A stretch of DNA of 33,797 nt. It comes from Candidatus Parvarchaeota archaeon. GTDB lineage: Archaea > Nanobdellota > Nanobdellia > JAFCGN01 > DAOVEB01. Both the position numbers and the translations under genes were made by a program. Below the pieces are notes generated by a model that was not told the origin of the DNA, did not search any database, and saw only the letters and a list, made by a program, of their open reading frames with translations. The stretch covers positions 1 to 33,797 of the forward strand of contig DAOVEB010000005.1 of NCBI GenBank assembly GCA_030669205.1. Reading direction: 5' to 3'. How positions within the stretch are numbered: the stretch's first letter is position 1; each line of letters starts with the position of its first letter. Positions 6,082 to 33,553 of this stretch are shown in pieces.

Positions 6082-7005
6082 ATGGATGATAAAAAAACTT
6101 TCACACAGAAGTGTCCCGAGTGCGGTTCCGCAAACCTCCACTGGGACAGAAAGCGCGGGGAGATGCACTGCAACTCCTGCGGCTATGTTATTGAGGAATC
6201 GATGATAGACTTCTCTCAGGAGTGGCGCGAGTTCGACCACGACCAGATTAATGCTAGGAGGCGTGTTGGTTCCCCTTCCACGTTTAAAAAGCATGACAAG
6301 GGCCTATCAACCAAGATTGGAAAGAGCGGTGACCTGTACAAACTTAGTTCGTCAGACAGGCGCAAATTCTACCGCCTGAAAAAGTGGCAGACCCGCATCT
6401 CCACAGCAATTGAGAGGAACCTCAAGTTTGCGTTGGCTGAGCTCAGGCGGGCAAGTTCATTTCTCAACATACCAGACATAGCAGAGGAGGAGTCGGCTCG
6501 GATTTATCGCATGGCTGCCGAGAAGGGCCTTGTCAGGGGCAGAAGTATGGAGTCTGTGGTTGCCGGAGCATTGTACGCAGCGTGTCGCAGGCACGGTGTT
6601 CCGCGGACATTGGAGGAAATATCATCAGCTTTTGGTCTTGACAAGAAGGAGATAGGTAAGACGTATAGGTTCATCTGCAGGCAGCTGGGTATAAGGATTC
6701 TGCCAACCAGCCCGCTTGACTATGTTTTCCGATTTTCGTCAGAGCTAGACCTCAATCCAGAGACAACAAGCAAAGCTGTCGAAATCCTGAAGAAGGCGAT
6801 AAAAAAGGAGATAACTTCTGGCAAAGGTCCCATGGGAATCGCGGCAGCAGGACTTTACGTTGCCGCGCTGTTGTGTGGAGAGAAAAAGACCCAGCGCGAA
6901 GTCGCGGATGTTGCAGGTGTCACCGAGGTCACAATCCGTAACAGGTACAAGGAGCTACTTGAAGAACTGGACCTTGAGAACAAGATAAAGGATATCAAGG
7001 AATAA
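6082..7005 (+). CDS. tfb: Transcription initiation factor B (TFB/TFIIB)
   Basis: Zinc ribbon CPECGS..HCNSCGYV, B-reader-like segment, two cyclin-like repeats (GLYVAALLCGEKKTQREVADVAGVTEVTIRNRYKEL). Confidence 0.96.
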   Translation: MDDKKTFTQKCPECGSANLHWDRKRGEMHCNSCGYVIEESMIDFSQEWREFDHDQINARRRVGSPSTFKKHDKGLSTKIGKSGDLYKLSSSDRRKFYRLKKWQTRISTAIERNLKFALAELRRASSFLNIPDIAEEESARIYRMAAEKGLVRGRSMESVVAGALYAACRRHGVPRTLEEISSAFGLDKKEIGKTYRFICRQLGIRILPTSPLDYVFRFSSELDLNPETTSKAVEILKKAIKKEITSGKGPMGIAAAGLYVAALLCGEKKTQREVADVAGVTEVTIRNRYKELLEELDLENKIKDIKE

Positions 7006-26709: not shown

Positions 26710-27216
26710 TCATAAATAATATTTTATTATTTTATCCCAAGCTACTGCTATGATAAGTAATGCTACAAACATGACACCAAAAGCTACTCCAATGTTGTTG
26801 TAAGTGCCATCTACTATGAGTAGCAGGTTTCCATATGTGGGCAAATAACTAAGAAATACAAACATACCAACAAGACTCACAATAATAAGTAAGAGCCATA
26901 CACGTTCAAAGGTGATTTTTGGAAATCTACCGCTTGAGTCGTAATCATGTTCCTTAACACCTTCTCTCAGATAACCTTTACCATCAATGTAAACATCGTC
27001 AGGTTCATCGTATGTATATCTATGAAGTCTATTGTGCTCCTCTTCGGTCATAATCTCAAGATTTGAAACATCATTGTTCAACTTGTCGCCATCTATATGA
27101 TGAACTACATATTTCTTAAATGGTAGAGGGTATTTGTCCCTGTTCTTGCGATATATCTTATGGTAGGCAATCTGCCTGTGAATCAGTGTTGAATGTTTCT
27201 TTTCTTCTGTTGTCAT
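26710..27216 (-). CDS. HNH endonuclease domain protein with two C-terminal TM helices
   Basis: YVVHHIDGDKLNNDVSNLEIMTEEEHNRLH (HNH) then ERVWLLLIIVSLVGMFVFLSYL and NIGVAFGVMFVALLIIAVAW. TATA TATATA about 25-30 nt upstream. Confidence 0.85.
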   Translation of the reverse strand: MTTEEKKHSTLIHRQIAYHKIYRKNRDKYPLPFKKYVVHHIDGDKLNNDVSNLEIMTEEEHNRLHRYTYDEPDDVYIDGKGYLREGVKEHDYDSSGRFPKITFERVWLLLIIVSLVGMFVFLSYLPTYGNLLLIVDGTYNNIGVAFGVMFVALLIIAVAWDKIIKYYL

Positions 27217-27324
27217 TCAATAGAATCAACTGAGAATGAGTATATATGGGTTTTGAAGGGAGGGTTGATACCCTCACTTTTTGATTTGATTACATCCCTG
27301 ATGGGAGACAAACTTGGAATACTA

Positions 27325-27396
27325 GGCCGCAGCTGGGAATTGAACCCAGTCCTGGAGGGCCACAACCTCCTGCGCTACCATTACGCTACAGCGGCC
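27325..27396 (-). tRNA. tRNA-His (GTG)
   Basis: Encoded G-1 opposite C73, anticodon loop TTGTGGC, T arm CTGGG-TTCAATT-CCCAG; one U6-U67 acceptor mismatch. Confidence 0.92.
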
Positions 27397-27988: not shown

Positions 27989-28488
27989 TACTCAACTGGC
28001 TGCTCACCTACATGGTTGCATCGTTCTCAGTTCCCCTTGGCTTTCTCATAGCGAGTAAGACCAGATCTGAGTGGAAAGGAAGTATTTTGCCTGAATTGGT
28101 CTCTGACACAATTATACTGGTTGCAGTTGGCGTTGCTTTGTACGTTGCTCTGGGAGCAGAGTCGCTCTCGCTCTACACAGTACTCTTTGGTATTCTTGCT
28201 GGCTACTTCGCAAGGGTGGGTTTTGAGTTCCTACCCTCAGCGTCACTCATCTATTACCTAGATGCAGTGTCTGGGAGCTACCTCCCGGTTGTCCTATCCG
28301 CGCTCTGGCTCGTAAAAGGGTCAGGGTTGAAGTTGCGAGATATGCTCTTCCAGTGGGGCCTCTTCGTCTTGGTTTCTGTTGTCTTTGTCACCTCAGGCCT
28401 TTTCATATTTGCATCCATGTTACCTTTCATAATCTCCTTCTTTTCAGGACTCTCAATCGGACAGCTGGTGAGGTCAGTTGATATATGA
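27985..28488 (+). CDS. Uncharacterised multi-TM membrane protein
   Basis: 167 aa hydrophobic protein; ATGA overlap with upstream gene. Confidence 0.78.
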   Translation: MILNWLLTYMVASFSVPLGFLIASKTRSEWKGSILPELVSDTIILVAVGVALYVALGAESLSLYTVLFGILAGYFARVGFEFLPSASLIYYLDAVSGSYLPVVLSALWLVKGSGLKLRDMLFQWGLFVLVSVVFVTSGLFIFASMLPFIISFFSGLSIGQLVRSVDI

Positions 28489-28693
28489 GGTAGTTGTCAA
28501 GACCAATGCCAAGGAGAGCAAGGTGGTCGACGGCGAACCATTGCGGGTGTGGCTGCGTTCCAAGCCTGTGAAAGGCAAGGCCAATGCGGAATTGATTGAA
28601 GTTCTTGCAAAGCACTTCGGCGTATCGAAGAACAGAGTTACAATAATCTCTGGCTTGACATCAAGAAGGAAGCGGGTTGAGGTCCTGAACTGA
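28478..28693 (+). CDS. DUF167/YggU family protein
   Basis: VVVKTNAKESKVVDGEPLRVWLRSKPVKGKANAELIEVLAKHFGVSKNRVTIISGLTSRRKRVEV; TTG start. Confidence 0.92.
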   Translation: MIYEVVVKTNAKESKVVDGEPLRVWLRSKPVKGKANAELIEVLAKHFGVSKNRVTIISGLTSRRKRVEVLN

Positions 28694-28732: not shown

Positions 28733-29233
28733 ATGTCTGGAGGCCGTGCGACCTTTGTTTCTCTTGATGATGTGATTGAGTCAACAGAGGATACGTGCTT
28801 GGTGGTGCATCCATTCTACACACAGGAGGTTCTTCAGGACAGGCGGTATGTGGAGGACATTAGGGCCCTGTTCTTCGGTTTTCCTGGCCAGCTCTTTGTC
28901 CTGAGTCCAAGTGACGGACATAAGACAACGCTGGACGTACTTTTCAGTGATGGATTCCGGGAACCTTCGGCATATGAAGGCAGGTTTATCATGACCAAGA
29001 ACCGGTCTTCTGAGATAAGTGAGGAGTACGCCGGTGTTCTTGAGTCACACATAGAAGACAACAAACCCGGAACAGTGTATTATGCCGGCGGATACGTCGG
29101 CACCCACATCTTTACAAGGGGCTGCCTGACCCAGGTTATGGACGAGATAAGGAGTTTATATCCGCGATGCGATAGCATACTCATCGATGGCTGCGTCTTT
29201 GACTGGAACGGCCAAGTAATCAGGAGGCTGTGA
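28733..29233 (+). CDS. Hypothetical protein, alpha/beta
   Basis: 166 aa MSGGRATFVSLDDVIESTEDTCLVVHPFYTQEVLQ...YYAGGYVGTHIFTRGCLTQVMDEIRSLYPRCDSILIDGC; no family assigned. Confidence 0.75.
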   Translation: MSGGRATFVSLDDVIESTEDTCLVVHPFYTQEVLQDRRYVEDIRALFFGFPGQLFVLSPSDGHKTTLDVLFSDGFREPSAYEGRFIMTKNRSSEISEEYAGVLESHIEDNKPGTVYYAGGYVGTHIFTRGCLTQVMDEIRSLYPRCDSILIDGCVFDWNGQVIRRL

Positions 29234-29236
29234 AGT

Positions 29237-29647
29237 TCAGTATTCCCTATAACCTTCTGCAAGCGGATGTCCTTTGCACGATAAGTTGAACTTCTTGTAC
29301 CAGCCGAACGGCGAACGCGCCACGATTATTCCCTCATTTTTGAGTGCTTCCTCCATCTCTTGCAGCACCTGCTTCGCAAGTTTTGCAGAGCCAAGGCTCT
29401 TGCTCAGGTGCGCGTATGGGTAGATGAGAACTATTTCCGGCTTGATGCGGCCCACATCAATCTTGGTGTTTTCAACGAACGCCTTGAGAATCTCGTCATG
29501 CCTGTTCTCGTCCCGTTTCTCATAGCAGGTGAAGCAGACCAATACATTGTCATAACCGGCTTTCATGGTTCCGTCATGCTCGGCAACAGGTGTCTCCTTT
29601 ATCGCCTCGTAGTCGAACTCTGTGCAGTGAAGGTTGAGAATCTTCAT
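29237..29647 (-). CDS. Stand-alone archaeal-type threonyl-tRNA synthetase editing domain
   Basis: MKILNLHCTEFDYEA...VLVCFTCYEKRDE...IVLIYPYAHLSKSLGSAKLAKQVLQEMEEAL...ARSPFGWYKKFNLSCKGHPLAE: archaeal ThrRS N-terminal (DTD-like) domain. Confidence 0.92.
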   Translation of the reverse strand: MKILNLHCTEFDYEAIKETPVAEHDGTMKAGYDNVLVCFTCYEKRDENRHDEILKAFVENTKIDVGRIKPEIVLIYPYAHLSKSLGSAKLAKQVLQEMEEALKNEGIIVARSPFGWYKKFNLSCKGHPLAEGYREY

Positions 29648-29699
29648 GGTAATGGCTTTACCGTCAACCTATTTAAAGGATTTTTGGATAATTTCACTT

Positions 29700-30272
29700 A
29701 TGTTTAGGGATGATGATATATCTGAACTGTTTAGGAAGCGAATTACTGATCTCTTGAGAAAGTTTGCCGATGAACATGCAGATTACGGAGACATTAGGAA
29801 GAAAGTGGATGAAATGGCTTCAATCTTTCCCGGACACATCAGCTTTGGAGGGGTCAAAATAGAGGGTGATAACATCACATTTTTTGGAGATGGTCCTCCA
29901 GAAGAGATCATGAAGCGTTTATCCAAAGTTTTTGGAGATAGAATATTTAGTCAACTTCCAATCATTTATGAGCAAGAAAAGAAATCCCTTATCATCAGAA
30001 GTACCATTGATGTAATAAAAGAGAATGACCAATATAGGGTCGTCGCAGAGTTGGGGTCCCTGTACTCTCCAAAATGCAAACACAGGGTTAAGTCTTACCC
30101 TGGCGGTCTCACACTGGAACTGGAATGTAAAAAGGAACGCGAGGAGATGGAGCTATCCGGAAACATTGATCTCAGAGAGAGATTAGAAGATGGTTACTAT
30201 GATGGCAGGTTCAATGTACTCAAAAATCACATTACAAATAGTATCCTAGAAGTTCTAGTAAAAAAGGCTTAA
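29700..30272 (+). CDS. Hypothetical protein between the two ThrRS pieces
   Basis: 190 aa MFRDDDISELFRKRITDLLRKFADEHADYG...; opposite strand to both ThrRS genes; no family recognised. Confidence 0.75.
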   Translation: MFRDDDISELFRKRITDLLRKFADEHADYGDIRKKVDEMASIFPGHISFGGVKIEGDNITFFGDGPPEEIMKRLSKVFGDRIFSQLPIIYEQEKKSLIIRSTIDVIKENDQYRVVAELGSLYSPKCKHRVKSYPGGLTLELECKKEREEMELSGNIDLRERLEDGYYDGRFNVLKNHITNSILEVLVKKA

Positions 30273-31771
30273 AGCTCTTCTTGGCTCCAGGCCACGAATA
30301 TCGGCCGCTTGCTCATCCTTGTTGGGATGTACATTGGCCGATATGGTTTGTCGCCAATCTGTTCCTTGAGCTCTTTCACAAACTCCTCAAGTGTCCACTT
30401 ATTCATGTGGTCCTTCTTCAAGGTGGACTTCCTGCGCACCACAACCGGCAATTTTTCACCTTTCGTCTCCTTGTCACCTATAACAATAATGTATGGCACC
30501 CACTTTGCCTTGGCATCAAAGACCTTTCTGCCCAAACGTTCGTTCCTGTCGTCGATTCCGACTCGTATACCCTCGTAGCACAGTGCTTCTGAAAGTTCAA
30601 CCGCCTTCTCGTCATGCCTGTCTGCGACTGTCAGAACCCTCACCTGCTCTGGCTCGAGCCATAACGGGAGATGAGGTAATCTCATCCTTGAAGCCCGCTC
30701 CAGCAATGCATACATGACCCTCTCGATTGCGCCGCTTGGCGAGCAGTGGAGTATTATCGGCTCCTTCTGCGTGTTGTCCTTGTCAGTGAACCTTATCTTG
30801 TAGTTGTTCGCGTTCTCCACGTCTATCTGGTCAGTTGCCAGTGCAGCCGCCTTGTCGAGCGTGTCTATAAAGTTCAGCTCATACTTGAACACGAAATAGA
30901 AGTGCTGCTTGTTCCACATCTCGAGCAGCGCAGGCTTTCTGAACCTCTTCACCAGGTTTCTGACAACGTCCTTGTTTTTGTTGTAGAACGGACGCACGAT
31001 TCTCACAGCAAGTTCAAAGTCCTTTGATACGCTGAAACCTATGTTACTGTTGACATTTAGGACCATACTGAACCTGTCCATCAGCTCCTCTTTTGCAGAG
31101 TCCATGTCTGCGCAGAACGCGTGGCAGTCTGGCATTGTAAACGTCCGAAGGCGATGCAAACCAACGAGCTCTCCCCGTTTTTCGAGCCGGAAGGAGTACT
31201 TTGTGAGCTCGTACATCTTCATCGGCATGTTCTTGTGGGATATCACCATGTCCTTTGCCATGAGAAACTGGCCAAAGCAGGCCGAGAACCTCAGGAAAAG
31301 GTCCTTTTTCACCGACTTCACTATGTACTGCCTTGCAGGAAACCTGTCCAGATAGGTTTTGAGCGTTGGATGTTTGAAGTCGTACATTATTGGAGTCTCG
31401 ACCTTCATAGCCCCATAATGATTCACAACATGGGCGTTTACCATGTCGATGAGCAGGTCGCGGATGAGCTCGCCGTTTGGGTAGTATCTCATATTTCCCG
31501 GATCGCTTGCCGGCTCGTAATCAGCCAGTTCCAGTTTTCTCATGTACTTCACGTGTACCGGCTCTTCCTTGACCTCGCGCGACTTAGCCATCTCGTACAT
31601 CGCGAGCTTCTTGAGATTAAATCGCTTTTTGAAGTTGTAGCCGACTACGTCGCCATCCTTTATTTTTAGGGGATTGAGCTTACCACTCGGCTCTACGATA
31701 TACCATGAACTCTTGAGCGTCTCTTCAGCTATGAGAGCCCTTGAGACCTCCTTATCCTGTTCATTTACCAT
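30269..31771 (-). CDS. thrS: Threonyl-tRNA synthetase catalytic plus anticodon-binding domains, lacking the N-terminal editing domain
   Basis: NPLKIKDGDVVGYNF, GMKVETPIMYDF-type motif 1, RFSACFGQFLMAKDM, LHRLRTFTMPDCHAFCADMDSA, LHCSPSGAIERVMYALLERA, LPLWLEPEQVRVLTV. Confidence 0.95.
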   Translation of the reverse strand: MVNEQDKEVSRALIAEETLKSSWYIVEPSGKLNPLKIKDGDVVGYNFKKRFNLKKLAMYEMAKSREVKEEPVHVKYMRKLELADYEPASDPGNMRYYPNGELIRDLLIDMVNAHVVNHYGAMKVETPIMYDFKHPTLKTYLDRFPARQYIVKSVKKDLFLRFSACFGQFLMAKDMVISHKNMPMKMYELTKYSFRLEKRGELVGLHRLRTFTMPDCHAFCADMDSAKEELMDRFSMVLNVNSNIGFSVSKDFELAVRIVRPFYNKNKDVVRNLVKRFRKPALLEMWNKQHFYFVFKYELNFIDTLDKAAALATDQIDVENANNYKIRFTDKDNTQKEPIILHCSPSGAIERVMYALLERASRMRLPHLPLWLEPEQVRVLTVADRHDEKAVELSEALCYEGIRVGIDDRNERLGRKVFDAKAKWVPYIIVIGDKETKGEKLPVVVRRKSTLKKDHMNKWTLEEFVKELKEQIGDKPYRPMYIPTRMSKRPIFVAWSQEEL

Positions 31772-31863
31772 GGTATTAATTCATCCTCGCACATCTTTAT
31801 AAATCTTATATCTGCCTCCAACTTTGAAAATATTTAAAAATCCGCTCATCAGAGGTTCATTTG

Positions 31864-32088: not shown

Positions 32089-32111
32089 ACCCAATCCATG
32101 TATTGTTCATC

Positions 32112-32774
32112 ATGGTGGCTCCTGAAAACCCGTTTCTGTCGATTGTACCGAGGAGGAACGAGAAGATAATCGACATGGTCTCAATTGTCAAGGAGCTCAG
32201 GGAGCTCGTCACTGAGACCCTGAAAGGTGATGTTCTAATTGTTCTGAAAGGTGGCTATGGCTCTGGCAAGACCCTGATTTCAGAGCATCTGGCAAAGTTC
32301 TTGAAAAAGAAGAATGTTGAAGTCAGGCGCCTAACTTGCACCCAAGAGATTATTGATGACATCCGTGCAATCCCTGACGAGCGCAAGAAAGACATCTTTG
32401 TTGTTGTGGACGGCCTAGATGTCTGCATGGGCATGGACGAAGTGATGACAAACAAGCTTCTTGACCTGTTGATGGAGAGGAGCAGCAAAGGTCTCACATT
32501 TCTTCTTGAGTGCACTCCGGACGTCTTGGAGAGGTTCTATTCGCTCAACAGGAGATTTGAAAAGTTTTCCAGGGTTGTGAATATCATGCCCATAGGCTAC
32601 GACGAGGCGAGGGAGCTGGTGGTTTCCAGACTGAACGAAATCCGGAAGCGAAAGTCAGAGTCGGTTGAGCCATTCACAGAGGATGAACTTAAAAAATACT
32701 GGAAGACTTCGCGTGGCAACCCACGCATGATACTGATGCTCTGCCAAAGTATGTACGACAGGAAGGTTCAATGA
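32112..32774 (+). CDS. AAA/Cdc6-like P-loop ATPase
   Basis: VLKGGYGSGKTLISEHLAKFL (Walker A), DIFVVVDGLDV (Walker B-like), YWKTSRGNPRMILMLCQ (sensor 2-like). Confidence 0.85.
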   Translation: MVAPENPFLSIVPRRNEKIIDMVSIVKELRELVTETLKGDVLIVLKGGYGSGKTLISEHLAKFLKKKNVEVRRLTCTQEIIDDIRAIPDERKKDIFVVVDGLDVCMGMDEVMTNKLLDLLMERSSKGLTFLLECTPDVLERFYSLNRRFEKFSRVVNIMPIGYDEARELVVSRLNEIRKRKSESVEPFTEDELKKYWKTSRGNPRMILMLCQSMYDRKVQ

Positions 32775-33553
32775 AATACTCTTTTGTCCTCCTCACCATA
32801 ACAGTCAGCCTTTTCCTCCTTTGTGAGCTCTTTGGGCTCCACGTGAGCAATGTTTATTCAACAGCAGATCTTCCTTATGGCATTGAACCTCCTGAGATGG
32901 GAGGTATGGATGCAGTCTTCTATCTGCTCTTTGCCATAATCTTCATGACGGTATTCCTGCTTCTGCTGCAACGCCTGAGGTTGCAGAGATTCATCAAACT
33001 TTGGTTTGGCGTCGCATTCTTCCTATGTGTTTCAGTGTCACTCTCGGTCTTTGTATCTGAATGGATGGCGATGGTCGGTGCCTTCACACTTTTGATACTG
33101 AGGGTCAGGGAGAAGGATCTCTATGTGCACAACATAGGCGAGATATTCGTATATGGTGGTGTAGCTGCTATATTTGTGCCAATCTTAACTCCGCTATCAA
33201 TCTTTTTTCTCATGGTAATAGTCTCCATATACGATTTCATATCTGTTTTCGTGACCAAGCACATGGTCGCCTTGGCAGAGGGGCAGAGGGAACTCGGAAT
33301 CTTTTCAGGACTTCTGCTGAAGTACAAGGATGAAGTTGGTCTCCTGGGCGGCGGGGACATAGCCTTTCCGTTGCTTTTTGCCTCTGTTGCGATGCGGGAA
33401 CTTGGCACGGTTTCAGCGCTCTTTTCGGTTTACGGCGCAACAGCAGGACTCATAGCCCTTATACTATTAGGAAGAAAGAACAAGTACTACCCAGCACTCC
33501 CATTTTTAACGCTTGGAACGCTTTTTGGCTTTGCGCTTTCCCTTATCTTCTAA
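32771..33553 (+). CDS. Presenilin/SPP-like intramembrane aspartyl protease
   Basis: Multi-TM protein with SIYDFISV (YD), LLGGGDIAFPLL (GxGD) and YPALPFLTLG (PAL). Confidence 0.92.
   Translation: MKYSFVLLTITVSLFLLCELFGLHVSNVYSTADLPYGIEPPEMGGMDAVFYLLFAIIFMTVFLLLLQRLRLQRFIKLWFGVAFFLCVSVSLSVFVSEWMAMVGAFTLLILRVREKDLYVHNIGEIFVYGGVAAIFVPILTPLSIFFLMVIVSIYDFISVFVTKHMVALAEGQRELGIFSGLLLKYKDEVGLLGGGDIAFPLLFASVAMRELGTVSALFSVYGATAGLIALILLGRKNKYYPALPFLTLGTLFGFALSLIF

Follow-up and report, generated by a model that had tools for sequence, protein, structure and literature searches.

Two genes for one threonyl-tRNA synthetase

We have analyzed a stretch of archaeal DNA of 33,797 nucleotides (the window), which is the entire contig C16 of a 911 kb genome that is assembled in 68 contigs and is 87.6% complete. 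It encodes a threonyl-tRNA synthetase (ThrRS) in two separate genes with a third open reading frame between them. The strands and coordinates of these three reading frames, listed in an earlier note on this DNA, were verified, and the features of the locus are as follows.

28478–28693, plus strand: DUF167 gene, converging on the editing domain gene
28733–29233, plus strand: second ORFan, 166 aa, converging on the editing domain gene with the gene ends 3 nt apart, and with its own TATA-like box at −30
29237–29647, minus strand: stand-alone archaeal ThrRS editing domain (ED), 136 aa, without an anticodon-binding domain
29672–29677: TTTAAA palindrome, a putative TATA box for both the ED and the orphan; the hexamer starts 30 nt before the ATG of the ED and 28 nt before that of the orphan
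29700–30272, plus strand: AT-rich ORFan of 190 aa (the orphan), lying between the catalytic and ED genes and divergent from ED
30269–31771, minus strand: ThrRS catalytic core plus anticodon-binding domain, 500 aa, starting at the linker that follows the ED in fused archaeal ThrRS
31796–31803, minus strand: putative TATA box TTTATAAA of the catalytic gene
32103–32774, plus strand: P-loop NTPase, conserved flank, divergent from the catalytic gene
32771–33553, plus strand: presenilin/SPP-type protease, conserved flank, divergent from the catalytic gene

Profile searches identified the tRNA-synt_2b and HGTP_anticodon domains in the catalytic protein. Its alignment with the archaeal ThrRS model NF003068 spans positions 141–612 of 613 and scores 593 bits (cut-off 484), and the ED protein aligns with positions 1–136 of the same model. 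These segments are complementary, as if a single archaeal ThrRS had been divided where the ED meets the linker; the N-terminally fused ED of an NF003068 protein is here a separate downstream gene. The ED scores 150.5 bits against PF08915 (cut-off 30.2), with residues 1–135 lying on positions 1–136 of the 137 in the profile. The proposal of the earlier note that the synthetase is split, with a catalytic gene that starts at the linker, is thus upheld, as is the permuted order: read along the minus strand, the ED gene lies 3′ to the catalytic gene, the reverse of the fused protein. Both reading frames are intact and have normal codon use. In the catalytic protein C165, H217 and H342, which are invariant in our alignment, align with the bacterial zinc ligands; we take these to be the Cys/His/His set of E. 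coli ThrRS.

The orphan that the note had pointed out between the two pieces is present, as an intact reading frame with a 4-nt overlap at the catalytic stop. Codon statistics favor its own frame, if weakly. The GC content is 39%, against 49% in the neighboring genes, and third-position GC is 0.39 compared with about 0.65. Among the 378 genomes of the class that were searched, no relative rose above noise; viral contigs and phage records gave none either, and it belongs to no Pfam or PHROG family. Single-sequence structure prediction was uninformative, with a pLDDT of 38. We considered the orphan as a component of the system and rejected this, since it is absent from the relatives and has no detectable family, and we have treated it as incidental. 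The catalytic and ED genes touch in most relatives. The simplest reading of the sequence is that the orphan was a late insertion specific to the window, which would have interrupted a catalytic–ED operon, so that the ED and the orphan would have come to use one promoter.

TATA-like hexamers upstream of 30 genes of the window are clustered approximately 30 nt before the start codons, 14 of 24 falling in the bin from −30 to −21. The ED appears to have a putative promoter of its own, the TTTAAA that it may share with the orphan. This palindrome is spaced for two divergent leaderless genes, and is a candidate bidirectional archaeal promoter. Elsewhere in the window an AT-rich HNH endonuclease gene (26710–27216, minus strand; 35% GC, with a hydrophobic C-terminal part) lies near tRNA-His (27324–27396) and is possibly mobile.

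The catalytic–ED pair in related genomes

The class to which the window belongs is, we infer, one of Nanoarchaeia-type DPANN archaea. In most genomes of the class that have PF08915, this domain sits in a long fused reading frame. Seven relatives, from two further families of the class, have the two parts as separate genes of one strand, the ED gene following directly after the catalytic gene, as follows.

G016 (family f3): catalytic and ED genes overlap by 4 nt
G029 (family f9): spacing of 2 nt
G045, G059 and G009 (family f9): about 1–4 nt from the catalytic gene to the ED methionine
G037 (family f9): gap of 112 nt
G053 (family f9): gap of 379 nt, holding a 101-aa reading frame

The pair is thus found in at least three families. 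A linked and permuted pair had seemed unusual; the linkage and permutation are real, but the arrangement is not a one-off. In G037 (L044:5058–5135, minus strand) and G053 (L047 5103–5481, minus strand) the gap carries a similar copy of the start of the ED, reading MRILQWH or MKLLQWH followed by unrelated codons, as a partial duplication or a short leader reading frame.

The surroundings of the pair are also partly conserved. The NTPase and SPP genes both lie near the catalytic gene in G006, G009, G037, G045 and G053, and near the locus of G015; at the G016 locus the SPP gene alone is present. In G015 too the DUF167 gene (43% identity) converges directly on the ED. For the small membrane protein conserved downstream of the ED in f9, no convincing counterpart was found in the window. 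The catalytic gene closest to that of the window, with 57% identity and the same neighborhood, is that of G006, in which no ED was detectable; editing may therefore be dispensable in some relatives.

Stand-alone EDs also occur beside other synthetases. G003 belongs to the family of G016; there a stand-alone archaeal ED (6571–6978) directly follows the gene for a bacterial ThrRS (L051:4362–6284) that contains TGS and tRNA_SAD domains. On one reading the catalytic gene was replaced in place while the ED was retained. Two serine-editing domains of different families stand side by side at this locus. G015 has a minimal ThrRS of 406 aa without any editing domain, and its ED lies 4.5 kb downstream. 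Outside these archaea, the Bathyarchaeote B46_G15 (G378) has an ED-less archaeal ThrRS (L092:6001–7452) and, on another contig, an ED (L170:7158–7583) that is 58% identical to that of the window. A second Bathyarchaeote has an archaeal ThrRS without a cis ED (L100:455–1909), and no PF08915 was found in it.

Two further observations concern the distribution of these genes. The nearest relatives examined, G001 and G002 of the window's own order, lack PF08915, and their ThrRS is of the bacterial type, carrying TGS and tRNA_SAD (L058, L059), so that the type of ThrRS changes within the order. There is also a second, divergent class of stand-alone PF08915 scoring 70–103 bits (G306:C25, G219:C9, G095:C2, G084:C16, G323:C4 and G226:C38), and some of these genomes have a fused ThrRS as well.

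Origin of the swapped order

The earlier note is correct that the layout cannot come from a simple insertion, yet either of two histories would account for it: a tandem duplication followed by complementary losses, or disappearance of the cis domain and subsequent gain of a free one. The function in trans would be the same in both cases.

In the first of these, to which we would give slightly less than an even chance, a fused thrS gene was duplicated in tandem to give ED1-cat1-ED2-cat2, and complementary losses left cat1-ED2. The swapped order then requires just two deletions, and the boundaries are as expected, with the catalytic gene starting at the linker and the ED stopping at the domain boundary. 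The shared NTPase/SPP synteny is consistent with this, as is the phylogeny of the synthetase. A tree built from 94 catalytic domains places the split catalytic parts and that of the ED-less G006 in one clade (SH-aLRT 98) within the fused archaeal ThrRSs; in this clade those of the window and G016 are sisters (99). Against it, the flanks hold no credible remnant of a second catalytic part or of a first ED, and the short copies of the ED start seen in G037 and G053 seem to have arisen later and locally.

Alternatively, the ED of the window may come from a mobile stand-alone lineage acquired from outside, the synthetase having lost its cis domain separately. We regard this as a serious possibility, if not a probable one. 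It draws its support from the ED tree, which is the weaker of the two with about 137 columns. In this tree the EDs of the window, G016, G003 and the Bathyarchaeote G378 form a clade (100/100) that contains stand-alone genes only, and the stand-alone ED of G015 adjoins it (99/95). The Bathyarchaeote ED lies on a different contig from the catalytic gene, which is itself without a cis ED and whose catalytic part falls on the Bathyarchaeota/Nitrososphaerota side of the tree, and the partners differ, with a bacterial ThrRS in G003 and the minimal one in G015. Acquisition would however have been needed twice, in f9 and in f1/f3, with both EDs landing just downstream of the catalytic gene.

The EDs of f9 form another clade (100/100), apart from the window-type EDs on the free tree, so a single origin of the pair is not proven by the trees: the catalytic parts form one clade and the ED groups are separate. 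Both ED groups are long-stemmed, so that long-branch effects are likely, and constraining all of these EDs to one clade was not rejected (AU p = 0.348 and 0.438). The recurrent position of the ED right behind the catalytic gene favors one origin, while the Bathyarchaeote ED and the all-stand-alone clade favor mobility. We would advance only tentatively, and at rather less than even odds, the broader view that the window-type ED is a trans-editing protein of archaea in its own right, which consists of the ED only, moves horizontally and is independent of any one synthetase. It would have partnered three kinds of ThrRS (the archaeal type lacking a cis ED, the bacterial type, which has an N2 domain of its own, and the minimal type) in Nanoarchaeia-type archaea and Bathyarchaeota, and its presence would have allowed repeated loss of the cis domain.

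Probable editing in trans by a free domain

The ED aligns over its full length with the solved archaeal N-terminal domains (NTDs). Its residues H80, Y117, K118 and E131 correspond in the alignment to P. abyssi H83, Y120, K121 and E134, so that the active-site set is complete, in agreement with the note's account of conserved editing motifs; functional data exist for His83, Tyr120, Lys121 and Glu134 (PMC4491819). In vitro, Ser-tRNA(Thr) is deacylated by the NTDs of P. abyssi and M. jannaschii on their own, and by the trans-acting domain of A. pernix (PMC4491819), so that an ED-only protein should in principle be able to do the same. The archaeal ED may depend on U73 for its selectivity (PMC11295145). 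U73 is present in tRNA-Thr(UGU) of the window genome, and in all four relatives in which a tRNA-Thr gene was detected (G001, G003, G006 and G016). We looked for a special charge in the stand-alone EDs and rejected this; their pI values are within the range of the fused EDs.

A full-length ThrRS elsewhere in the same genome was sought and none was found. The profile search of this 87.6% complete genome (about 12% missing) found one ThrRS only, without a cis ED, and one PF08915, supporting the reading of editing in trans.

The conclusion that emerges is that the catalytic gene and the free ED probably constitute a two-gene ThrRS system, derived from a tandem catalytic–ED pair, that carries out post-transfer editing in trans; we place the probability of this at about 0.75. 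The protein encoded at 30269–31771 would charge tRNA(Thr), having lost its own N-terminal editing domain. The 29237–29647 protein, a free domain of the D-aminoacyl-tRNA deacylase fold, would hydrolyze mis-charged Ser-tRNA(Thr) after its release; having no anticodon-binding domain, it would recognize its substrate by the acceptor end (U73). Both genes would descend from a tandem pair common to several families of the class; the orphan would have entered later, and the ED would have gained its own promoter. Domain content, gene order, conservation of the pair, retained residues and U73 are read directly from the sequence, from which activity, substrate, action in trans and promoter use are inferred. 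Editing in trans, suggested in the earlier note, is the most likely mechanism; the activity of isolated NTDs and the zinc ligands of the catalytic protein point the same way.

It is improbable that the ED serves another pathway, such as clean-up of Ser-tRNA(Cys) beside SepCysS or removal of D-amino acids from tRNA. Small free tRNA-Thr-ED genes do adjoin clade VII SepCysS in methanogens and Hadesarchaea (PMC5424206), and these too encode an ED alone, but the window ED is linked to ThrRS, and the window genome (G000; incomplete) has no match to SepCysS (TIGR02539). Among five other genomes searched, three gave weak matches below the cut-off. DTD1, a D-aminoacyl-tRNA deacylase, is free-standing and shares the fold of the ED; however, the sequence of the window ED matches the ThrRS ED family, and the Lys of the Tyr-Lys pair, Lys118, is kept where DTD has Met (PMC4491819). 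An assembly artifact, such as the rearrangement at 29.2–31.8 kb that the note had envisaged, or gene decay is very unlikely indeed: the draft is fragmented, but the same gene order occurs in relatives of other families, both reading frames are intact with normal codon use, and the flank is conserved.

Freestanding archaeal ThrRS editing is itself already known, in the form of crenarchaeal ThrRS-ed (reviewed in PMC7373986). In the ThrRS-cat/ThrRS-ed pair of Sulfolobus and Aeropyrum (PRK14938, Ser-tRNA(Thr) hydrolase) editing is likewise apart from aminoacylation and expected in trans, and the comparison made in the note is apt to this extent. The architecture differs, since ThrRS-ed carries an anticodon-binding domain (PMC11295145). 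The window ED is homologous to PRK14938 at 102 bits, below the cut-off of 362, but at 136 aa has no HGTP_anticodon; it stands alone, linked downstream of a catalytic gene of the archaeal type that normally has its ED in cis. Compared with the fused archaeal ThrRS (NF003068; PF08915 plus tRNA-synt_2b and HGTP_anticodon), the window halves together align end to end, but as two genes in reversed order. B46_G15 is similar in having an ED-less archaeal ThrRS and a stand-alone ED, but on different contigs. No paper describing an ED-only, linked and swapped arrangement was found in the open-access literature searched. The window system departs from crenarchaeal ThrRS-ed in having no anticodon domain on its ED, and from the SepCysS-linked EDs in being linked to ThrRS, with no SepCysS match in the genome.

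The conservation of such a protein raises the question of how tRNA(Thr) is recognized from the acceptor end alone. The class offers natural comparisons between ThrRS that is fused, split and linked, split beside a bacterial synthetase, or deprived of its ED, and these bear on when editing in cis becomes dispensable and on how domain order is permuted in evolution.
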